From a virus: a stretch of 38,416 bases of DNA. The DNA is taken from the IMG/VR virus record IMGVR_UViG_3300025889_000333, positions 1 to 38,416 of that record; one strand, given 5' to 3'. The translations under genes and the position numbers were made by a program. Position 1 is the stretch's first letter, and every line of letters starts with the position of its first letter. Shown piece after piece: positions 3,966 through 16,987 of this stretch. Below the pieces are notes generated by a model. It did not search any database and was not told the DNA's origin. It worked only from the letters and a program-made list of their open reading frames with translations.

Positions 3966-4673
3966 TTATTCCTCAATACATTTTAACCAAAATACCAGTA
4001 AGTATCTATCTCCTGATTCTACTGCAAGTCCCCTGTGCATATGAGTAAAACTCGGAAAAATTAGAGCGTGGCCTGTAGGTAAAGGCTCGACTGTACCACG
4101 TTTCAAAAACTCAGTTCCGCCACCTTTGTACTTTCCAGTGTTCAAAGGAACTACCATACTTATATCAGCACTTGCATCATGATGCCAAGCACCTTGTTTT
4201 TTATCCTTTAAATTATAGTTGGCTATTTGTATTCCACCACCGTTTACGTGTCGATTCCAAATATTCAAAAATATAGGATTACCTATAGTATATATCGTAT
4301 GGAACAAGGAATGGAAGATTTCTGGGCAATTATCTTGAAAAGTTATTTCGGGTATTTGACGCAGTTCATCCTCATCTGGGTTGGGTTGAAACCCATGAAA
4401 TGCCTCTAAATTTTTCATTTCATCAAGCAATATTTCGCAAAACTTTTCTGAAAAGAAAGGCACTGTGTAAACATCTTTAAGGGGTTCTTGTATAATCTTA
4501 TCTAATTCAGTGTCTTTTCGTTGTGTGTCGCCTTCTTGTTTGTAGAACTCCATTATCGGTTCTACTGATTGTGATACAGCATCAAACGTATTTTTATCTA
4601 TATACCAGTCAGCAGGATGCTCTAAAAGTATGTTTTTGGTTTTGTATCTTAGATCCTCTGCTGTGTTGCTCAT
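3966..4673 (-). CDS. 2OG-Fe(II) oxygenase-like protein (fifth in window)
   Basis: 235 aa. The C-terminal half has the double-stranded beta-helix signature of 2-oxoglutarate/Fe(II) dioxygenases. The HxD pair is His164/Asp166 in GAWHHDAS. It is followed by a GGGTEF turn, a distal His in SFTHMHRG (His211 or His213), and a conserved Arg (Arg223) in GDRYLLVFW that would bind 2-oxoglutarate. The N-terminal ~110 residues are unrecognised. Such enzymes hydroxylate proteins, nucleic acids or small molecules; the substrate is not predictable here. Its start overlaps the preceding 108-aa gene by 4 bp. It stands apart from the four other oxygenase-like genes at 14.7-17.0 kb, among tail genes, so a virion or lipopolysaccharide target is possible. 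Confidence 0.8.
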   Translation of the reverse strand: MSNTAEDLRYKTKNILLEHPADWYIDKNTFDAVSQSVEPIMEFYKQEGDTQRKDTELDKIIQEPLKDVYTVPFFSEKFCEILLDEMKNLEAFHGFQPNPDEDELRQIPEITFQDNCPEIFHSLFHTIYTIGNPIFLNIWNRHVNGGGIQIANYNLKDKKQGAWHHDASADISMVVPLNTGKYKGGGTEFLKRGTVEPLPTGHALIFPSFTHMHRGLAVESGDRYLLVFWLKCIEE

Positions 4674-6863: not shown

Positions 6864-7307
6864 TTATACCTCATGCCATTCTTTGCCTTCAAACAACAAA
6901 GATTCTGCTTCTCTTCTTCTTATAAGTCCCTGTAATACTTTGCCACCAGCTTTATTCCAGCGTTTAATTTGTGCTGGTACACCTTCATAATCTTTAGCGT
7001 TTAGAACTTTTAACAAAGTTGAGGCTTTTAAATTTGCAGGTCCTAAATTAAATACCCAAGAAACTAGTGCATCAAACTGATTTTGTTCTAGATCAACTTC
7101 TACAAGATCATTTACATATCCTTCGTATTCTTCCATTTCATGTAACAATAAATTATCAGCATCTTCTTGTTTCATTGTATCGCCTTCTTTTACATTCTTG
7201 GTAGAACCATATCCTATAGTCCATACTCCAGCTGCACATTTGTAAGCTTCAAGCTCACAACCTTCAAACTTCTTAATAAGAGCTAAACCTTCTTGTGAAA
7301 TTTTCAT
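6864..7307 (-). CDS. Endolysin, GH24 (T4/P22-type) lysozyme
   Basis: 147 aa from the ATG at 7307, chosen because AAGGAG lies 7 bases upstream; longer forms run into the holin gene. It cleaves the beta-1,4 bond of peptidoglycan. The GH24 catalytic triad is visible with correct spacing: Glu15 in KKFEG, Cys24, and Thr30 in WTIGYGST. This makes it the E-C-T subtype, with Cys in place of the T4 Asp. The family hallmarks FNLGPANLKASTLL and IKRWNKAGGKVLQGLIRRR follow. No signal peptide or anchor is present, so access to the wall needs the holin encoded immediately upstream. Length matches phage lysozymes. Confidence 0.95.
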   Translation of the reverse strand: MKISQEGLALIKKFEGCELEAYKCAAGVWTIGYGSTKNVKEGDTMKQEDADNLLLHEMEEYEGYVNDLVEVDLEQNQFDALVSWVFNLGPANLKASTLLKVLNAKDYEGVPAQIKRWNKAGGKVLQGLIRRREAESLLFEGKEWHEV

Positions 7308-7308
7308 C

Positions 7309-7788
7309 TTATTCTCCTTTGTTGGATGTGTTAGATGCTCCAAAATAGAACGAAATAATTGCACTAGCTAATCCTCCAAGATAACCCAAAACAAGATTTA
7401 TTAAAGCTTCGGAGTTTTGTTCTGGCGGTTGTAACGTAACCAAAAATATATAACCTAAAAAGCCACCTATAGTTGCTATACCAATTATTCTTGCAGTCCA
7501 ATCTTTGCTAAACATACCTCTAGCATTTTGTTTGTCTTGAGTTTCTAGTTTGAATACATCTACTTCGAGCTCTTTCATTTGAACTTCGAATTGTTGTTCA
7601 GCTTTCTTGAGTTCTAACATTTGTTCTGGTGTAGCGTTTTGTATTGCTCTTTCTATTGATTTCTGATCATTTGGTACACCCAGAACATCTGCAATCATGT
7701 TTGCAGCCATGCCTCCCATAGGTCCACCTATTGCTGTTCCTAATGTAGGGGCTACAGCACCTACTATGTTTTTAAGTAATCCCTTCAT
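7309..7788 (-). CDS. Three-transmembrane holin (gene-transfer-agent type)
   Basis: 159 aa. It has hydrophobic segments at about 7-35 (Gly-rich), 100-119 and 128-149, separated by a charged helical region rich in Glu/Lys/Gln (58-90). This matches the three-TM holin family known from gene-transfer agents and many marine phages. The protein would form the inner-membrane lesion that releases the endolysin. It overlaps the XhlA-like gene by 4 bp (ATGA), and the endolysin start lies only 2 bp beyond its stop. A compact lysis cassette is therefore clear. Confidence 0.85.
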   Translation of the reverse strand: MKGLLKNIVGAVAPTLGTAIGGPMGGMAANMIADVLGVPNDQKSIERAIQNATPEQMLELKKAEQQFEVQMKELEVDVFKLETQDKQNARGMFSKDWTARIIGIATIGGFLGYIFLVTLQPPEQNSEALINLVLGYLGGLASAIISFYFGASNTSNKGE

Positions 7789-8000
7789 ACCATCACCATA
7801 TTTACTACTACTGCTATAAATAAAGCACCTAAAAAACCAAAAACACCAAAGGTAGTAGCTTTGATAGTTGAATTTATATGAGTAATTTCTTCTTTAATAT
7901 CAGAAAATTCATTAAATGCGGTTTTCCAACGCTCGTGCGAAATTGTTTCTAGCTTTGTAAGTCTTGCTACTAAATCGTTTGTAGTTATTTCTTGTTTCAT
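7785..8000 (-). CDS. XhlA-like coiled-coil/membrane lysis accessory protein
   Basis: 71 aa. An N-terminal coiled coil with heptad-like spacing (residues ~5-45, including LVARLTKLETISHERW) precedes one C-terminal transmembrane helix (50-70). This is the architecture of the XhlA/hemolysin family that cooperates with holins. It starts one base after the stop of the cyclase gene (TAATATG) and overlaps the holin by 4 bp, so the sensory/curli genes and the lysis genes are translationally contiguous. The family assignment rests on architecture only. Confidence 0.6.
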   Translation of the reverse strand: MKQEITTNDLVARLTKLETISHERWKTAFNEFSDIKEEITHINSTIKATTFGVFGFLGALFIAVVVNMVMV

Positions 8001-8001
8001 A

Positions 8002-9753
8002 TTATGCAGTAGTAAATATTTTTATTTTATTCTTTTTACCTTTTACAAAAATACCATCAAGTTCTTTTAGCATTATTTGATCACTAAAGGTATCAACTTT
8101 AATGGTATCATAACCTATGACTAAATCTTCGCCAACTTCTTTAGTTGAGCTTTCAAGTCTAGCTGCTAGATTTACAGCATCTCCAATAGCTGTATAATCG
8201 AATCTAGTATCACTACCCATATTACCAACAACAGCATATCCAGTGTTTACACCCACACCTATTTCTACACCAATGTCAGCTTTTTTTATATTTTCTTGTA
8301 TTTCTTTAGCACAAAGCACGGCTGCTGTTTCATGATTTGGTAAATCTATAGGAGCATTAAATATAGCCATCATGGCATCGCCAATATATTTATCTACCAT
8401 TCCTCCATATTCTTTAACTGCGTTTGCTTGAATAGTTAAAGCTTTGTTCATAATCAAAGTTACCTCTTCTGGTTCTAGTCGTTCTGACATAGCAGTAAAC
8501 CCACGGACATCTGTAAAGAGAAAAGTGCAATACCTTCGCTCACCACCCAAAACTAATGACTCTGGATTGTCTTGTAACTTTTTAACTTGTCTTGGATCAA
8601 GATAATGCTCAAACTGTTTTTTAATTTGTTGGCGTAATTTATACTGTTTTCTAAAGTTTAGATAGAAAGCAATAGCACCAGCAATGAATTGAGATACAAA
8701 AGTCCATGAAAAATCTATTAAATAACCTTTTTGAATGCTAAAAGCTCCTGTAAAGCCCGTAGTAAAGAGCAAAATTACAGCAAGGCTTACGCCCTTAGTT
8801 ACACCAAAATAATTAATTACAAGCCACGTCAACGACACAAAAATTGTAAAAATTAAAATTTCCAACGCAAGTGCAAAATCTGGAATAAATGGAGAGTTTT
8901 CTATCAATATTGATTCAGATAGTGCAGCTTGTATTTTATGTGGTTCTAATAATCCAGTCGGTGTTGCAACTTGTGGCATGATTCCTGGAGCAGTAACACC
9001 AACAAATACAAACTTACCTGCAACATCCATTTCTTTTAATGTTGTTTGTGGTGTATCTACCCAACTGATCCATTTACGACCAAGACTATCTGTTTTAACG
9101 GGTGGTATACCTCTTACAGCTATTTCTTGTATACCAACATCATTGGTAGTAATGATGTAAGTTCGAGCTCCTGTAAGTGTTTTTAAGACTTCTGTACCAA
9201 AAGAGCTAACATAACCATCAGGAGTTTTAAGTAACAGTGGTATTCTTCTAACCAAGTTATCTATATCAACTGGTGCACTAGCAATACCTTGATTTGCATT
9301 TTCTTGTAGCACGTCTATGTTTTGTATAACGCCAGGTGTCGACATACCACCAGTATCATCGCCTTTGATAACAGTGCCTGTAGTTTTGGGATAGCTACCA
9401 TTAGCATTTTCAAACATAGCTAACACAGAAGGAGCATATCCAAGGGTAGTGGCAAACACTTTATCTCCACCCATGCGATCGGCTTGTGGAAAACCTATGA
9501 CCCAACCAACACCTATAGCACCTTCATTTATTAAATCTACTTGTATTTGTGCAAGTGTCCTCCTAGGAAATGGCCAACCACCTTGTTTTTCAATATCTTC
9601 TTCTGTAATGTTCAATACAACAAAATTACCAGATGGCTCTGGTGTCGTTACAAAAGCATCAAATATTTTGAGTTTAAATATTTCAGTTGGAGTGCTTTGA
9701 AATATAAGTGGCAGTGATAATACAACCAATATAGGAAAAATAAGTTTATTCAT
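8002..9753 (-). CDS. CHASE2-domain class III adenylyl cyclase
   Basis: 583 aa inner-membrane receptor cyclase. An N-terminal membrane segment (3-18) is followed by a periplasmic CHASE2 sensor (~20-290; VLNITEEDIEKQGGWPFPRR and KFVFVGVTAPG are typical). Three membrane helices follow (~292-315, 320-339, 347-366), then a linker and a cytoplasmic cyclase domain (~405-583). The catalytic residues are all present: metal-binding Asp415 (FTDVRGFT) and Asp459 (KYIGDAMMAIF), substrate-selecting Lys455 and Thr521 (DYTAIGDAVN), and transition-state Asn528 and Arg532. Lys/Thr points to ATP as substrate, hence cAMP. It overlaps the FecR gene by 4 bp (ATGA). In bacteria, CHASE2 cyclases are often encoded beside FecR-domain proteins, and that pair is kept here in a phage. 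The signal sensed is unknown. Confidence 0.93.
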   Translation of the reverse strand: MNKLIFPILVVLSLPLIFQSTPTEIFKLKIFDAFVTTPEPSGNFVVLNITEEDIEKQGGWPFPRRTLAQIQVDLINEGAIGVGWVIGFPQADRMGGDKVFATTLGYAPSVLAMFENANGSYPKTTGTVIKGDDTGGMSTPGVIQNIDVLQENANQGIASAPVDIDNLVRRIPLLLKTPDGYVSSFGTEVLKTLTGARTYIITTNDVGIQEIAVRGIPPVKTDSLGRKWISWVDTPQTTLKEMDVAGKFVFVGVTAPGIMPQVATPTGLLEPHKIQAALSESILIENSPFIPDFALALEILIFTIFVSLTWLVINYFGVTKGVSLAVILLFTTGFTGAFSIQKGYLIDFSWTFVSQFIAGAIAFYLNFRKQYKLRQQIKKQFEHYLDPRQVKKLQDNPESLVLGGERRYCTFLFTDVRGFTAMSERLEPEEVTLIMNKALTIQANAVKEYGGMVDKYIGDAMMAIFNAPIDLPNHETAAVLCAKEIQENIKKADIGVEIGVGVNTGYAVVGNMGSDTRFDYTAIGDAVNLAARLESSTKEVGEDLVIGYDTIKVDTFSDQIMLKELDGIFVKGKKNKIKIFTTA

Positions 9754-10847
9754 TTACTTTGGGTGATTGTAATAACACTATCACTACCTCCGTTGACTTT
9801 AATTGTATTAGAAACACCATCTTGTATCAAAATTACTGTGTAAGCATTACTACCGTTCAAGTCTAATCTAACACTTTCGCTTACATTTCTTCTAAGACTA
9901 ATGACATTACCTGTAATTAAAGTGGTTATTTGTGTGTCAGGATCATTACCTATTAGAGTACCAACTATTTGTGTGCTTGTTGCTAATCTTAATTGGTCTT
10001 CTTCTTTTTCTACAGCAAGTGCATCTATTACATCTAACAAATCTTCAAGAAAGTTTACATCAAGGTAATTTATATCTAGCTCTGTGAATTCGAGTTGATC
10101 TTCGTCTAAGTAGTCTTCTGCTAAGTAATCTATATCTAAATCGTTAAAGTCAAGCAAACTGTTGGTTTGTGTGCTTGTATTTTCTTCTACAATAATTTCT
10201 TCTTCTTTTGGTGGGCTAACAATAAGCATATTATCTATAAGATCTAAAGTAAGATCTAAAATTACAGGTTTTGTAGGAGATGATTCAAACACACTTACGG
10301 TTGTTGCCTGATAAGGTTTATTCAGCAAAACAGAACCAGTGGCTGTAACAACTTCTATCTCACCACTAGATAAACCAAATTTATTTGGTAATAAAATAAT
10401 AAGACTCCGGCCTAGCTCATCTACAGTGGCTGTAAAGTCAGTGCCTCTTATCGCTATATTAGCTGTTGGTGTTTTAAGTTGTATGTTTTGTTTATCTATT
10501 CTGTTTAGATTGCCTGTAATAAACCTAGCTGTGCCTAAACCAAAAGTAAGAGCCATCTTAGACTTTGATGGGTCTGGATCGTAAATATATTCATCAATAA
10601 GTAATTGTGAATGTTCGGTTAGTTTTACAGTAGACTTATCAAGAAAAGTGATAGCCATTCTGCCATCTTTTGTTATAGCCTCATCGTTGCTTTGTATAGC
10701 AAATTCTAAATTAGCTTCGTAAGATTTATCTCTTAATATTTGTGCAGAACCTCTAAGCTCAGATATATCACCTATATCAACAGCTTGTTGAGGTTCCCCC
10801 ATCGTTTTGTGTGATACAAATATTACTATTAGAAGTAGTGCCTTCAA
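9750..10847 (-). CDS. Secreted FecR-domain protein with C-terminal curlin-like repeats
   Basis: 365 aa if it starts at the TTG at 10847, the start that supplies a signal peptide (KALLLIVIFVSHKTMG). An internal ATG at 10802 would remove it. The TTG start makes it overlap the curlin-like gene by 71 bp. A FecR domain spans ~50-140 (SQLLIDEYIYD, then LKTPTANIAIRGTDFTA). Unlike TonB-linked FecR regulators it has no cytoplasmic anti-sigma part, and no sigma factor gene is nearby. Residues 215-285 are an acidic linker with repeats like LDIDYL/LDINYL/LDVNFL. The last ~40 residues (LDLNGSNAYTVILIQDGVSN, then VNGGSDSVITITQ) have the alternating beta pattern and Q-x-G-x-x-N motif of curlin repeats. Probably a periplasmic or exported partner of the amyloid and the cyclase sensor. 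Confidence 0.88.
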   Translation of the reverse strand: MKALLLIVIFVSHKTMGEPQQAVDIGDISELRGSAQILRDKSYEANLEFAIQSNDEAITKDGRMAITFLDKSTVKLTEHSQLLIDEYIYDPDPSKSKMALTFGLGTARFITGNLNRIDKQNIQLKTPTANIAIRGTDFTATVDELGRSLIILLPNKFGLSSGEIEVVTATGSVLLNKPYQATTVSVFESSPTKPVILDLTLDLIDNMLIVSPPKEEEIIVEENTSTQTNSLLDFNDLDIDYLAEDYLDEDQLEFTELDINYLDVNFLEDLLDVIDALAVEKEEDQLRLATSTQIVGTLIGNDPDTQITTLITGNVISLRRNVSESVRLDLNGSNAYTVILIQDGVSNTIKVNGGSDSVITITQSK

Positions 10848-11508
10848 TTTTTAACCAATCCCTTGCTAGTGTTGATGACTGTATAATGTTAAATGTGTTA
10901 CTGCTTCCATCTAAGTCCATATAAAAATATGCTGAATCAGATGATGTATTCCCTGAATAACCACTTCCAGTAAAGTTAAAGACGTTTGAACTACCATTAA
11001 TATCAACAAAATTAATAGCATTAGCATAATCAATATCTATATCAAATTGATTAGAACCACCTAATATAGTGTAGTCTAAATCAAGGTAAGATGAATCTGC
11101 ATTTTCAGCTATTTTTATATCAAATTCGTTACTACTGCCAGTGACATCAATCATTAAATTAACATAATCAGCACTTATAAGTCCTGTGCTGTTAAGCAAT
11201 ATATCCATAACATTGCTATCACCATCAAACTCAAAAAATCCAGTAAAGTTATCGCCATCAATAGCGTCTGATCTAAATAAGTTGCTTGAACCGATTTGAT
11301 TTATATCTAGTGTCATGCTTACACCATCAAGGTCAAGAGCAGTCATGGTGCCAGAAACAGCTTCGGTTCCACCAATAAGGTTAGAACTACCTAACTGTTC
11401 TAGATCTATAGATGCAGTATTTCCGTTTTGATCTATGTAAATTTCATTGTCAGCTGCAACGTGAACAAAAGAAAAAACAAGAAATAAGCACGTTAGTTTA
11501 TTCTTCAT
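10777..11508 (-). CDS. Secreted curlin-like amyloid-repeat protein
   Basis: 243 aa from the ATG at 11508; a GTG immediately before it is the alternative. An N-terminal signal peptide (KNKLTCLFLVFSFVHVAA) precedes DNEIYIDQNGNTASI, which matches the curlin Q-x-G-x-x-x-x pattern. Numbering from the GTG, at least seven units follow. Each has alternating polar/hydrophobic residues ending in GSSN or a variant (residues 41, 74, 97, 125, 151, 173, 202), then a hydrophobic-Asp/Asn-Ile/Phe strand such as FDIDI or FNIIQ. Spacing is 22-33 residues, looser than the 22-23 of E. coli CsgA/CsgB, and many positions carry Asp. The gene overlaps csgG by about 11-14 bp. Curlin family membership is inferred from motif, secretion signal and position after csgF-csgG; it is the likely cargo. 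Confidence 0.8.
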   Translation of the reverse strand: MKNKLTCLFLVFSFVHVAADNEIYIDQNGNTASIDLEQLGSSNLIGGTEAVSGTMTALDLDGVSMTLDINQIGSSNLFRSDAIDGDNFTGFFEFDGDSNVMDILLNSTGLISADYVNLMIDVTGSSNEFDIKIAENADSSYLDLDYTILGGSNQFDIDIDYANAINFVDINGSSNVFNFTGSGYSGNTSSDSAYFYMDLDGSSNTFNIIQSSTLARDWLKIEGTTSNSNICITQNDGGTSTSC

Positions 11509-12355
11509 CACTCGATTCTACTCCTACTTCTTCTGTTTGTAAAACCCAATAACCTTTGTCAAAACCCTGGTTAATTATCTCAAGAACACCACCTTCAATA
11601 GCTTTCATGAGGGCTATGGTAGACGATTCGTTTCTAGCGTTGCCTAACTCTATCTCTACGAGCTCTGTGTCCATTTCAATAAACCTGAATACATCATTGG
11701 TTTTACCATAACTAAATATGGTTTTTTGACTAAGAACTTCTAATAATACTTCTCCTGTTGCTACAGAAATCATGCGTAGACTTACAGTTATATTATCCTC
11801 TCTATACTGAACACTATTACCAATGCCTAGATAACGAGCTCCTGATCCACCAGATTCAAGGTTTGCTTCGTATGATATTACTGCACCTTCTATAAGTATG
11901 CCTGCAAAGAGTAATGGTGCTAATTGTTTCTTTTTTTCTTCTTCAGAAGCAAATTGCTCTCTTGCCGAACGTATAAGCTGTCTTTCTTTGGTTAAATTAT
12001 CTAAACCAACTCTTTCTACAACCCTAAAAAACTGTCCGTTACCAGCGTGTTTTAAGGCTCTTATAAGTAAAGCATTAGGTTGTTGAGTTATAGCCGTACT
12101 GAACAAAGCAAACTCAGAGTTTGATTTACGTTGACCTGTTTGATCTGTGAAAGCCAAAGGATATACAGCAACAACAGGTCTAACCTTTGGTATAGGTGCG
12201 TTTTTTAATTTATCTGATTGAAGTTCCTGGATAGAAACTATGTTGTGTTGTTTAAACCTTTGCTCGTATGTATCTTCAAACTGGTCAAATATAGAGCAAC
12301 TAGAAAGTAAAAGAACCAATAGGCAAAGTAATCTCGGTGACATTTCCATCAGCAT
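11498..12355 (-). CDS. csgG: CsgG, outer-membrane curli secretion channel lipoprotein
   Basis: 285 aa, close to the E. coli length (277). It would form the ring-shaped outer-membrane pore that exports curli subunits. A lipoprotein signal (LLCLLVLLLSSC) gives lipobox Cys20 followed by Ser, which favours the outer membrane. Family landmarks align along the whole length: VAVYPLAFTDQTGQ, FRVVERVGLDNLTKERQLIR, ILIEGAVISYEANLESGG, GARYLGIGNSVQY, SVATGEVLLEV, VFRFIEMD. In the constriction loop the E. coli Phe56 appears kept (Phe85), while Tyr51 and Asn55 are not obviously matched. Start choice among Met codons at 12355, 12349 and 12343 is uncertain; all lie inside csgF, so translation is coupled. 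Confidence 0.95.
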   Translation of the reverse strand: MLMEMSPRLLCLLVLLLSSCSIFDQFEDTYEQRFKQHNIVSIQELQSDKLKNAPIPKVRPVVAVYPLAFTDQTGQRKSNSEFALFSTAITQQPNALLIRALKHAGNGQFFRVVERVGLDNLTKERQLIRSAREQFASEEEKKKQLAPLLFAGILIEGAVISYEANLESGGSGARYLGIGNSVQYREDNITVSLRMISVATGEVLLEVLSQKTIFSYGKTNDVFRFIEMDTELVEIELGNARNESSTIALMKAIEGGVLEIINQGFDKGYWVLQTEEVGVESSDEE

Positions 12356-12812
12356 CGGTTATTCGTAATGTAATAAATTGTCCATCAGATGTATATTCTA
12401 TAGTATTACCTTCGAGTTCTATAGTGCCTTCCGTTTGTGGTGTTTCACCAAATAGATTATCCACTAATTGTCGTGATAGTTGTGCATAGATTCTTGATTC
12501 TAAATTACGCAAAAAACGAGCTAGTGTAGTGTTTTCTTTATCTCTTTCTATTTGTTCTTGTAGTGCTTTGATTTCTTCTTTTATTGTAAGTTTTCTGGTG
12601 TACTGCTGGTTCTCTATTGTTAAATAGTGACTAGACGTGCCAACACCACTAAAGCTAGGTGACTTAAATTTGTGAACGATCTGATCAGCCTTTATGTTTT
12701 GTACAAAAATACCAATTATTAAAATTATGCCAATAAGCACTATTGACCACAGCAATCTATCTTTTTCAAGCTGTTCTTTTTCTAATTGTTTTTTAGTCTT
12801 TTCTTTGGTCAT
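12300..12812 (-). CDS. csgF: CsgF-like curli assembly factor
   Basis: 170 aa from the ATG at 12812, preceded by AAGG at 9 bases; a TTG at 12830 is less likely. In curli systems CsgF caps the CsgG pore on the outside and couples secretion to nucleation. A Lys/Glu-rich N-terminus of about 20 residues precedes a hydrophobic segment (22-38), a signal peptide or anchor. The mature part opens with IVHKFKSPSFSGVGTSSHYL, matching the CsgF pattern FxFRNPNFGG that inserts into CsgG. The helical middle (LARFLRNLESRIYAQLSRQL) and beta C-terminus (DGQFITLRITDADGNVTEIT, then LPIGSF) also follow CsgF. The unusually long charged N-terminus is atypical. It overlaps csgG by up to 56 bp. Confidence 0.88.
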   Translation of the reverse strand: MTKEKTKKQLEKEQLEKDRLLWSIVLIGIILIIGIFVQNIKADQIVHKFKSPSFSGVGTSSHYLTIENQQYTRKLTIKEEIKALQEQIERDKENTTLARFLRNLESRIYAQLSRQLVDNLFGETPQTEGTIELEGNTIEYTSDGQFITLRITDADGNVTEITLPIGSFTF

Positions 12813-13143
12813 CTCTATCAGCCTTAGCAATTTTATTGCTATCTATTAGTTGTGGCACACCTAATATTGTTTTAATTAGTGTGTCCTGGCGTATGATTTC
12901 ATTATCTAAACTACGCACTCTGTCTATTAAGGCTACTAAAATACCATGCTGTGAGTCAAGTTTTGTGCCTAGACGTTCTTCTATAGACGCTATCTGTGAT
13001 TCTACTTTTTCATCAACAGTGTCTAGTTTGGCTTCCATGCCATCAACAATACGTATAACCAGTTTGTATATAAACCAACCAAGACCTATTGCTGCTGCGA
13101 TAGGAAATCCTACCTCTTGAATTATGGTTACTGCTGAATCCAC
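12793..13143 (-). CDS. Membrane-anchored coiled-coil protein, holin-like
   Basis: 116 aa. A single N-terminal transmembrane helix (about 11-31, GFPIAAAIGLGWFIYKLVI) is followed by a long coiled coil with Asp/Glu/Ile/Leu heptads to ~105. The layout resembles BhlA/UviB-type holins and similar small phage membrane proteins. No catalytic motif is present. Its end overlaps csgF by about 20 bp, and it abuts the 264-aa virion protein upstream (shared TAATG-type junction), so it is the first membrane gene leading into the curli module. It could be a lysis factor or an accessory of the secretion system; sequence does not separate the two. Confidence 0.55.
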   Translation of the reverse strand: MDSAVTIIQEVGFPIAAAIGLGWFIYKLVIRIVDGMEAKLDTVDEKVESQIASIEERLGTKLDSQHGILVALIDRVRSLDNEIIRQDTLIKTILGVPQLIDSNKIAKADRDDQRKD

Positions 13144-14710: not shown

Positions 14711-15208
14711 TTAATCGCCTATGGCTACGTCAAAAGCTAATACATATCTATCTATTTTAGGTATTCCTTTTTCAGCTTGATGATATAGCCTTGAATCAAA
14801 TAAATTCCAACAATTAATTACAGGTTTTATTTTATTACTGTCGCTAAATACGGTGCCAAAATTTGTTTCAGTTAAATAAGCTATTGCTGAAATATTAAAG
14901 TTTTGACAAGTATCTGCGTGGTTATGCCTTATTGAATCTATTTTTTCGCCTGCTTTATTTAAAAACACCCAACATTTTTTATGTAAAATATTTGGCTGAT
15001 AACCTAAATATTTAGATACAGTATTATCAATAGATTGATTTAGTTGTTTGTAGTCTTTGTATAGAGTTCCGTTAGATTGTATTCTTGCGTGTTCGCATTT
15101 TGGATAGTCTTTGCAACACGGGTTATTTTTAATAAAATGCCGCAGTTTTTTATGAAATTTATTAGTATTTATTTTTTTTAAAATGTCACAATAATAAGTT
15201 TCGTACAT
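14711..15208 (-). CDS. 2OG-Fe(II) oxygenase-like protein (fourth of the cluster)
   Basis: 165 aa. The order of motifs fits a 2OG-Fe(II) dioxygenase beta-helix: RHNHADTCQN supplies His97/Asp99, AIAYLTETNFGTVF is the next strand pair, and LYHQAEKG (His143) with KIDRYVLAFDV (Arg154) supply the distal His and the 2-oxoglutarate Arg. The N-terminus carries five Cys between about residues 8 and 38. It is more diverged than its three neighbours, and I assign the fold with moderate confidence. It overlaps the preceding oxygenase gene by one base. Codon use is very AT-rich. Confidence 0.6.
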   Translation of the reverse strand: MYETYYCDILKKINTNKFHKKLRHFIKNNPCCKDYPKCEHARIQSNGTLYKDYKQLNQSIDNTVSKYLGYQPNILHKKCWVFLNKAGEKIDSIRHNHADTCQNFNISAIAYLTETNFGTVFSDSNKIKPVINCWNLFDSRLYHQAEKGIPKIDRYVLAFDVAIGD

Positions 15209-15825
15209 TATTGTTTAAAATATGAAGGTAATCCAATCATAGGTCTGCCATCAAATTTATTTTGTTTAGCATTTTCACCATTTGCATCGTTGTAGTGTAA
15301 AAATACTTGCCCGCAGTCTTTACCCAGAAATGGCTCACGCCAATGCTCTAAATCACAACCACGATACATAAGCATATCACCAGGTTTAAGTTTAATCTCT
15401 ACACCATCTTTACCTTTTTTACCTGAAGGTTCTAAAAATATTGACCAATCATCTCCGCCTAAATTCATAGTAGTAGATATTTCGCATGAAGGTCTATCTT
15501 TATGTCGTTTAAGTTCATCACCATTTTTATAAATTCTTGCATAAGAATAAGTTTCTATAAGCTTTACACCTGATTCTTTTTCCATAATTGGTTTAACCTT
15601 TTGTAATAAAGTTTCCATAACTATATCAGCGTAATGTGAATAAGTTTCAGGTATTTGTTGGTCGTTCCAAACACCAAAGTATTCGGTAAACTGAGATATA
15701 TATTTTTCATCAAATAAATGTCTTGCCACCATTCTTTTATTTAAAAAATACTGATAGCAAAAATCTGCTAATTCTTCTGATATAGCATTTTTAATTATTT
15801 GGTATTTATCTTTTTTAAAACTCAT
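15208..15825 (-). CDS. 2OG-Fe(II) oxygenase-like protein (third of the cluster)
   Basis: 205 aa. The iron-binding HxD pair is His108/Asp110 (LKRHKDRPSCEISTTMNLGG), the distal His is His161 (RGCDLEHWREPF), and the final strand is GQVFLHYND. The usual C-terminal Arg for 2-oxoglutarate is not obvious at that place (Gln173 is near), a variation I recall in this marine phage subgroup. LKPGDMLMYRG is a typical strand before the distal His. It overlaps the upstream oxygenase by 4 bp and the next by 1 bp. Substrate unknown. Confidence 0.82.
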   Translation of the reverse strand: MSFKKDKYQIIKNAISEELADFCYQYFLNKRMVARHLFDEKYISQFTEYFGVWNDQQIPETYSHYADIVMETLLQKVKPIMEKESGVKLIETYSYARIYKNGDELKRHKDRPSCEISTTMNLGGDDWSIFLEPSGKKGKDGVEIKLKPGDMLMYRGCDLEHWREPFLGKDCGQVFLHYNDANGENAKQNKFDGRPMIGLPSYFKQ

Positions 15826-16370
15826 AAAAAATTTGCAACTATAACTATTCTTTTTTCATCTATATCTGGACATTCTTGATAATGTTCGAGTTTGCCGTCA
15901 AACATAATGACACTATTTTCTTTTGGATTTGAATAAAATTTTTGATTATCCTCTCCTAATACTATTGTTCTACCTTGTGAAAATTTTGTTAAATAAACTA
16001 TAACGACTTTGTGAGGAAAATTTAGATCTATGTGCGGTATGCTAGATTTAACGGAACTATGTGGCGTCATGTTTATATTCATACGATACATAACTTCTAA
16101 ATCTATGTTGTTAAAATCAAGTATTTCTTTCAATACAGAATAACATTCATCAAAATAGGTAGATACTCTTTCAGGTATAGCAGGAACTTGTTTGCCATAA
16201 CTTTGATGTGTTGGTCTGCCCAATAAACAATGAGCAAAAAAACCCATATCTTCTTCATCTGTATCAGAAACAGTTTTATCAAGGTAATACCAAGGGAAGT
16301 TATTGCTTAATACTACATTTTTTAAATTTTTATAACTTTCTGTAACTGGGTTTTTTAGATTTTTAATCAT
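15822..16370 (-). CDS. 2OG-Fe(II) oxygenase-like protein (second of the cluster)
   Basis: 182 aa. HxD is His113/Asp115 in SIPHIDLNFPHKVVIVYL, the distal His is His163 in MFDGKLEHYQECP, and Arg174 in EKRIVIVANF fits 2-oxoglutarate binding. All elements needed for activity are therefore present. It overlaps both neighbours by 4 bp. Similar proteins occur in T4-like cyanophages and other marine phages, usually without a known substrate. Confidence 0.78.
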   Translation of the reverse strand: MIKNLKNPVTESYKNLKNVVLSNNFPWYYLDKTVSDTDEEDMGFFAHCLLGRPTHQSYGKQVPAIPERVSTYFDECYSVLKEILDFNNIDLEVMYRMNINMTPHSSVKSSIPHIDLNFPHKVVIVYLTKFSQGRTIVLGEDNQKFYSNPKENSVIMFDGKLEHYQECPDIDEKRIVIVANFL

Positions 16371-16987
16371 TTATAAGGGTACCCCAAATTCCAACACACT
16401 AAGGAGTGTCTTGTCCCTTTTGTAACTGGCTTTACTCTATGCCAAACAAAAGAAGGAAAAACAATTATACTACCTTTTTCTCTAATTTCTTTACATATTC
16501 TTGGTTGGGAGCCTTTGTCTGTATTTCTAAAATCAAACTCTAAATCTCCACCTTCGTATTCTTTAGGGTCAGTGAGTGATACAGTCATACTAAGTTTTCT
16601 TTGCTTACCATGAGTATTTATATTATCTGGACTGTTGTAAGGTTCTTCACGCGAATCACAGTGCCAATCATAAAATTGTCCTTTTTTATATTCAGTAAAT
16701 TGGCAAGCCTCTGACCAATCCCATTCAAAATTCCAACCAGCACTTGTATTTGCTTGATATATGTAGGGTTGAATTTCGTTATATATCCATCTGTCTGACA
16801 TCCAAACAACATCAGATTTGCGTTTTTTCTGTATGTTTTTTAGTTCTGTATCAGTAAGATTATCTTTTTGAAAATTACCTGTAAGAGCTATTTCTTGATC
16901 TTGCTCTTTACCATAACGTACTATTTCATCACATATTCTTTCTGGTATAGCTGACTGAAAGTACCAGTAATACCATTTAAGATTCAT
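16367..16987 (-). CDS. 2OG-Fe(II) oxygenase, prolyl-hydroxylase (PKHD) type (first of the cluster)
   Basis: 206 aa and the clearest member of the set. His109/Asp111 lie in GQFYDWHCDSREE, His183 in PSFVWHRVKPVTKGTRHSLV, and Arg193 in the same motif binds 2-oxoglutarate. YEGGDLEFDF between them is the standard PKHD turn. Enzymes of this type hydroxylate prolyl or other side chains. It follows the polyglycine adhesin-like gene directly (11 bp gap), so hydroxylation of tail or fibre proteins, or of host surface molecules, is a reasonable but untested idea. Confidence 0.93.
   Translation of the reverse strand: MNLKWYYWYFQSAIPERICDEIVRYGKEQDQEIALTGNFQKDNLTDTELKNIQKKRKSDVVWMSDRWIYNEIQPYIYQANTSAGWNFEWDWSEACQFTEYKKGQFYDWHCDSREEPYNSPDNINTHGKQRKLSMTVSLTDPKEYEGGDLEFDFRNTDKGSQPRICKEIREKGSIIVFPSFVWHRVKPVTKGTRHSLVCWNLGYPYK

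Follow-up and report, generated by a model that had tools for sequence, protein, structure and literature searches.

The stretch of DNA analysed here (the window, 38,416 nucleotides, positions 1 to 38,416 of IMG/VR virus record IMGVR_UViG_3300025889_000333) encodes a curli (T8SS) cassette on its minus strand, of which a predicted membrane-bound adenylate cyclase is the last gene, with lysis genes coming directly next (Table 1). In the direction of reading, the order is TM116, CsgF, CsgG, curlin-like protein, FecR-domain protein, cyclase, a 71-aa ORF with a TM segment, phrog_1544 and lysozyme. This order is common to 80 relatives wherever their contigs extend far enough, phrog_1544 or lysozyme being undetected in some of them. 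The cyclase ORF reads from 9753 to 8002 with an ATG start, and the plus strand there is full of stops; a previous sequence-only reading of the locus had the coordinates exactly right, and only the strand has to be corrected to minus. The stop codon of the FecR gene overlaps the start of the cyclase gene (ATGA), and the next ORF begins 1 nt past the cyclase stop. The same reading had placed the gene in a late operon together with an outer-membrane exporter. Its position in a lysis/structural block and its tie to such an exporter both hold; the cassette runs into the lysis genes, and its CsgG and CsgF are recognized by Pfam. Promoter-like sites in the cassette are not above chance (20 versus 30.2 in shuffles), and terminator-like sites number 8 versus 3.0 in shuffles.

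Table 1. Features of the curli cassette and of the adjoining lysis region in the window
Feature	Position	Strand	Evidence
TM116, small cassette-associated protein with one TM segment and a coiled coil	12793..13143	-	sequence
CsgF	12300..12830	-	PF10614, E 3.9e-18
CsgG, outer-membrane curli pore, lipobox-like N-terminus (by eye)	11498..12355	-	PF03783, E 3.7e-46
Curlin-like repeat protein (CsgA/B-like fibre subunit)	10777..11511	-	PF07012 in homologues; all-beta model
FecR-domain protein	9750..10847	-	PF04773 at 59-144; PF04773 in 32/32 homologues; AF2 model
CHASE2 - TM bundle - class III nucleotide cyclase, predicted adenylate cyclase, 583 aa	8002..9753	-	Pfam, residue reading, conservation
71-aa ORF, coiled coil and C-terminal TM, absent from the ORF list	7785..8000	-	translation
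phrog_1544 two-TM protein, possible lysis protein	7309..7788	-	phrog_1544, E 3.4e-29; hydropathy
Phage lysozyme (endolysin)	6864..7364	-	PF00959, E 5e-50

The assignment of the curlin-like protein rests on its homologues, 14 of 31 aligned ones being matched by PF07012, and the window copy has no match at E 0.1. Its model is all-beta (pLDDT 83), with a best E of 0.016 against PDB folds and none at 0.001. The 71-aa ORF downstream of the cyclase may encode a holin-type lysis protein. TM116 is matched among named phages only in HTVC008M. A histidine kinase upstream of CsgF, the name given to the gene at this position in PMC9599517 as excerpted, was considered and rejected, since neither Pfam (E<=1) nor NCBIfam finds a histidine kinase domain in TM116; this is possibly a difference of naming. 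Elsewhere in the window (14711-16987 and 3966-4673) lie four 2OG-Fe(II) oxygenase-like or related ORFs and a PHROG 'ferrochelatase' ORF; a ferrochelatase and an adjacent oxygenase are a known partner pair of HTVC023P-type phages in the available part of PMC9599517.

The nearest relatives of the terminase are found in 023Pt_psg01 (60%), HTVC027P (57%), Phage DSL-LC04 (60%, with less of the query covered) and HTVC023P (56%). The source is thus a marine phage akin to the HTVC023P-type pelagiphages and to phages that infect SAR11 bacteria; from this kinship, its host would be of SAR11 type. The accession of 023Pt_psg01 (MW574966) is the one given in the excerpt of PMC9599517. In the accessible text of that 2022 paper, curli T8SS genes, FecR, a 'histidine kinase' and adenylate cyclase are described in nine HTVC023P-type genomes and in Myoviridae, and metatranscript evidence and an alphaproteobacterial origin are given for the module. 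The window is alike in gene content and in fixed order (small upstream gene, CsgF, CsgG, curlin, FecR, cyclase), the curlin again being identified through homologues, and is thus a further member of a published phage module. The similar cassettes of HTVC008M and Melnitz have an additional curlin-type gene that separates FecR from cyclase; it is annotated as such in Melnitz and as hypothetical in HTVC008M. The window lacks this gene, and FecR and cyclase overlap there. CsgFG have also been described in pelagimyophages and Melnitz, with sibling capture or lysis control proposed as their role (PMC7029224, PMC9004378, as excerpted), and the portions of PMC9599517, PMC7029224 and PMC9004378 at hand contain no mention of CHASE2 or T1SS.

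Architecture and conservation of the cyclase

Pfam places CHASE2 at residues 14-305 (E 7.2e-26, 91.7 bits against a cut-off of 26.3) and Guanylate_cyc at 409-577 (E 5.8e-17, 62.3 bits against 21.9), and residues 376-581 align by phmmer with solved class III cyclases, including CyaB 3r5g (E 1.5e-29) and 6fht (E 5.6e-32). Hydropathy gives a single N-terminal segment (1-23) and, after CHASE2, a hydrophobic block of overlapping segments (287-340), which is the layout of a CHASE2 receptor, with one TM ahead of the domain and a TM bundle on its C-terminal side. Of the CHASE2/3-TM architecture proposed earlier, CHASE2, the N-terminal TM and the hydrophobic block therefore stand, and three TMs would fit the block, but hydropathy alone does not fix their number. 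The catalytic residues named in the sequence-only reading (Asp415, Asp459, Lys455, Thr521, Asn528 and Arg532) were all recovered by direct reading, together with R517. They comprise the two metal Asp (D415 and D459), the transition-state Asn (N528) and Arg (R532), and K455 and T521 at the purine-specifying positions, where class III cyclases carry Lys and Asp/Thr(/Ser). Residues of the Lys455 and Thr/Ser521 class are taken as purine-specifying in this family.

These residues are highly conserved. Among 270 sequences (269 distinct phage sequences and the window copy), D415, K455, D459, N528 and R532 are jointly present in 268, the two exceptions being L352, which runs off its contig, and Melnitz, with Ser at 528. 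K455 is kept in 270/270, which in this family favours ATP over GTP, and position 521 is Thr or Ser (mostly Ser in relatives) apart from one Asp, in Melnitz, and one cut sequence. The catalytic residues are maintained across four groups with 31-39% identity to the window group. The Melnitz cyclase (L163:8917-10968), with Ser for the catalytic Asn528 and Asp at the equivalent of T521, may be altered or inactive, as far as its sequence tells.

All 78 uncut cyclase homologues among 80 IMG/VR loci are full length and none is truncated, and an identical cyclase (100%) is encoded on two further IMG/VR contigs (L002 and L003), which together argue against a chance ORF or an assembly accident. Median dN/dS (Nei-Gojobori, over pairs that are not independent) is 0.21 for the whole cyclase gene, with CHASE2 at 0.23 and the cyclase domain at 0.19, compared with 0.13 for FecR, 0.13 for CsgG and 0.25 for lysozyme. 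The gene product looks like an intact, complete and selected enzyme, with its activity predicted. It had also been supposed that few phages encode membrane receptor cyclases, which turned out otherwise: relatives occur on hundreds of marine phage contigs, with each of four IMG/VR scans for CHASE2-cyclases returning 302-585 confirmed related stretches in overlapping sets, HTVC008M and Melnitz are annotated with such a cyclase, and the module was published in 2022 (PMC9599517).

The FecR-domain protein and two classes of exporter

The FecR-domain protein of the window has a predicted N-terminal export signal (seen by eye and as the first helix of the model), a disordered acidic linker and a C-terminal beta domain. 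Pfam finds the periplasmic FecR domain only, no cytoplasmic anti-sigma region was seen, and the cassette proteins scanned include neither a sigma factor nor a TonB receptor; we therefore call it a FecR-domain protein and not a classical FecR. In the AF2 model (pLDDT 70.7), a confident N-terminal beta domain is followed by the disordered linker and a C-terminal beta part, and the N-terminal domain finds its structural matches in PupR, at the periplasmic cell-surface-signalling domain, and in a FecR-like protein (Z 14.7-15.6). Strands at 300-363 of the model and a by-eye reading of the tail had suggested a curlin repeat. Comparison of the FecR and curlin profiles (hhalign) found no homology, which argues against FecR itself being a fibre subunit, and PF07012 was found in 0/32 FecR proteins at E 0.1. 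No clear fold match was reported for the C-terminal part of the model, and the FecR profile had no match among PDB sequences.

Residues 22-115 of the model also match the 'cell surface anchoring domain' of 5ix9 (Z 7.0, rmsd 2.2, 72 aligned, 22% identity), a similarity between model and structure that may be a common arrangement only. 5ix9 belongs to a T1SS ice-binding adhesin. By this match the phage FecR would resemble in outline the LapA-type T1SS adhesins, in which the periplasmic N-terminal domain of the exported adhesin is held at its outer-membrane channel. NF033682, the N-terminal retention module of LapA-type T1SS adhesins, matches a bacterial FecR beside a CHASE2-cyclase below cut-off (E 7.4e-7) and has no match in the phage FecR proteins. 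Lap is controlled by c-di-GMP, not cAMP.

Four cyclase queries led to 318 loci with a cyclase, or 314 distinct contigs after removal of 4 contig repeats. On every one of the 83 contigs that reach 6 kb or more upstream, an exporter (75 T8SS and 8 T1SS) and a FecR gene both lie within 9 kb; the contigs are close relatives of the four queries, so 83/83 does not stand for 83 independent events. When at least 3 kb upstream was accepted (n=124), an exporter was present in 123 (111 T8SS, 11 T1SS, 1 both) and FecR in 121, the misses being L323, a short contig with no exporter seen, and L177, L197 and L204, T1SS contigs with FecR further upstream. The 190 other contigs are too short upstream to judge linkage. 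Near-identical contigs, such as L170, L171 and L208, occur in the survey, and at 78% identity the phage set comes to 60 representatives.

The second exporter is a T1SS, laid out as giant FecR, OEP/TolC, ABC membrane part, HlyD and cyclase. On L085, a contig binned in a MAG, the cyclase lies behind an outer-membrane efflux protein (PF02321), HlyD (PF13437) and a 1317-aa FecR-domain protein, and this type of layout recurs among IMG/VR relatives (the best 80 of 302 confirmed). T1SS-like operons before a CHASE2-cyclase were seen at L085:243-9857 and on L170, L205, L208 and L210. The fourth T1SS gene, in its L208 copy (L208:8197-8946), matches TIGR03375 at positions 140-304 of 696 (E 6.9e-21); the match is confined to the membrane portion of LssB-type T1SS permease/ATPases, and the ATPase (nucleotide-binding) part is therefore missing from that gene. 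The T1SS outer-membrane protein has 0 matches in 50,697 named phage records, and no relative of the L208 structural-region protein was found among named phages. L166 (1926-10533) carries both exporters: a T1SS set with one cyclase and, on the other strand between the cyclases, a curli set with a second cyclase. What is new is that FecR and cyclase go with either of two unrelated exporter classes, the T1SS occurring in marine viral sequences other than the window; this T1SS version was not found in open-licence literature.

A small protein family, TM93/TM116 (window 12793-13143; L085:9866-10144; L162:3845-4123), accompanies the cassette in both exporter versions and, among named phages, occurs only in cyclase carriers. 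It is probably the gene published as 'histidine kinase'.

A cyclase tree of 60 phage and 43 bacterial sequences (quick method, unrooted, with rows L082, L085, L086 and L088 being MAG contigs taken for phage) puts the phage cyclases on one side of one branch, apart from the sampled bacterial ones (SH-aLRT 100). Inside the phage clade, T1SS-type cyclases form one clade of 12 (SH-aLRT 98), of which 6 have T1SS genes visible and 6 are cut too short; the window-type, L166b-type and HTVC008M-type cyclases fall in separate clades. Gene neighbourhoods in bacteria were surveyed in 41 genomes selected solely by cyclase similarity, 36 of them with CHASE2. Of these 36, 11 have FecR no more than 4 kb away from CHASE2, against 0.37 under random placement, and 4 have a CsgG-fold gene at such a distance, against 0.18, in a placement model that ignores contig breaks; G001, the MAG with L084/L085, is not among the 11. 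The FecR-CHASE2 pair is thus wider than curli. In Deferribacterota (L092, L096, L104 and L129) a CsgG-fold protein is encoded just upstream of the CHASE2-cyclase, and L092 also has an FlgT_N protein; the bacterial CsgG-fold genes near CHASE2 are probably not curli, those in L092 having FlgT-like neighbours.

Candidate roles of the cyclase

Our main reading, to which we assign a probability of about one half, is that the enzyme is an intact, selected receptor adenylate cyclase that reports to the cytoplasm on an export apparatus made by the phage, i.e. an exporter-coupled transenvelope cAMP sensor. The outer-membrane exporter, which is CsgG in the window and a TolC-type channel in the T1SS version, would send out a surface fibre or adhesin, and the FecR-domain protein would reside in the periplasm, at the exporter or passing through it. 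CHASE2 of the inner-membrane cyclase would then sense whether the FecR protein or the exporter is engaged, blocked or finished. The TM bundle and the linker would relay this to the class III dimer, which would make cAMP in the infected cell. The observations behind this reading are the architecture, the catalytic residues, the purifying selection, the constant tie to an exporter and FecR, the retention of FecR and cyclase when the exporter class changes, and the FecR-CHASE2 neighbourhood in bacteria. Beyond them we infer cyclase activity, ATP as the substrate, the direction of signalling and a downstream receptor; the CHASE2 ligand would be FecR or the exporter, and cAMP would have a target. 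A shared operon alone does not prove contact between FecR and CHASE2, so this contact is presumed. The observation made in the sequence-only reading is confirmed and its interpretation partly supported. Its 'monitoring of the envelope' is plausible and is sharpened here to a cyclase that would monitor its own exporter.

Two bacterial systems bear comparison. In S. meliloti, the CHASE2 cyclases CyaD1, CyaD2 and CyaK raise cAMP via sensing through the outer-membrane barrel NsrA (PMC13001267, as excerpted). Like the window, this system has a CHASE2 class III cyclase, and its cAMP output reportedly requires an outer-membrane protein; the phage cyclase is genetically linked to an outer-membrane exporter (83/83). 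However, the S. meliloti system is a bacterial plant-signal receptor, NsrA is neither CsgG nor TolC, and the cAMP receptor there (Clr) is known. In the Burkholderia BiofilmReg operon, which is linked to biofilm in the available part of PMC5192318, a periplasmic FecR-domain protein is likewise encoded beside a CHASE2 inner-membrane sensor, but that sensor is a histidine kinase with a response regulator, the FecR carries LysM, and the operon contains no exporter.

The missing receptor is the main weakness of the exporter-coupled cAMP reading. No cNMP-binding protein (PF00027) was found in 33 phage records, including the complete HTVC008M and Melnitz, so any receptor would have to be the host's. 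PF00027 is absent from 15 of 58 alphaproteobacterial genomes, mostly small ones; in one order of small rhodopsin-bearing alphaproteobacteria (rhodopsin in 28/30) it occurs in 21 of 60, mostly in ORFs of ~564 or 871 aa, which is not host evidence. Furthermore, Melnitz has curlin and FecR genes in its cassette, and the loss of the catalytic Asn from its cyclase would be surprising were cyclase output indispensable.

Other explanations have to be weighed against this one. The cAMP could act on host or phage transcription in a CRP-like manner, for example by switching on curli genes, with no sensing of the exporter. A role close to this is discussed in PMC9599517, which draws a comparison with the cAMP made upstream of CsgD in Gammaproteobacteria, and the conserved catalytic residues agree with it. 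The 33 phage records, however, have no cNMP receptor, the accessible text of PMC9599517 gives no CsgD in the phages, purifying selection on CHASE2 (median dN/dS 0.23) would be needless for a pure cAMP source, and the pairing of FecR and cyclase with a T1SS is left unexplained; we regard this explanation as unlikely. Alternatively, the cassette might belong to the lysis programme, with cyclase and pore timing or triggering lysis and cAMP as the timing signal. The gene order in the window, where the cyclase ORF is followed after a 1-nt gap by the small TM ORF, phrog_1544 and lysozyme, is kept in many relatives, and the Melnitz paper proposes the CsgG pore as a gated secretin or pinholin (PMC9004378, as excerpted). 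In HTVC008M and Melnitz, though, the cassette is followed by opposite-strand and hypothetical genes and not by lysis genes, and a lysozyme near the cyclase was found in 61 loci of all searched, only by window-seeded models; the link to lysis therefore looks specific to this phage group, and the explanation is, in our judgement, decidedly unlikely.

It appears improbable that the enzyme makes another cyclic nucleotide or serves in phage-phage or immune conflict, as a Pycsar-like cyclase or decoy. PADLOC PycC models do match the cyclase domain (best E 1.2e-27), but the match is limited to the shared cyclase fold (406-537), Lys455 and Thr/Ser521 fit adenylate cyclase, and no effector was found among 12 other window proteins scanned (FecR, TM116 and ten more, covering part of the window), the ten giving only weak matches to ZorB and nuclease models. 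That the gene is a captured host gene drifting without function is hardly credible: N528S in one relative (Melnitz) would agree with drift, whereas 78/78 uncut homologues are intact, dN/dS is 0.21, and the residues persist across four groups (31-39% identity to the window group). A recent decaying host remnant, the outcome that would have undone the sequence-only reading, is contradicted by the same figures together with the 268/270 sequences that retain the catalytic set.

The exporter-coupled reading can be widened, tentatively, to an interchangeable system, in which a FecR/retention-like periplasmic protein and a CHASE2 adenylate cyclase are paired with whichever outer-membrane exporter the phage encodes (curli T8SS or TolC/HlyD T1SS) and translate the export state of a fibre or adhesin into cAMP; two such circuits could lie side by side in one phage, as on L166. 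This wider version is possible but less likely than not. It would amount to a viral transenvelope second-messenger system, for which we know of no counterpart among phages. The T1SS version and the dual-system contig L166 would allow a clean comparison of exporter-specific signalling. If the main reading is true, the link between FecR, CHASE2 and exporter would suggest what the FecR-CHASE2 pair does in the many bacteria that have it, and the long-open purpose of phage curli would gain a handle, namely whether export changes cAMP and whether cAMP changes infection. If the cyclase does read the exporter, marine phages would impose a second-messenger circuit on streamlined hosts that have little transcriptional regulation.
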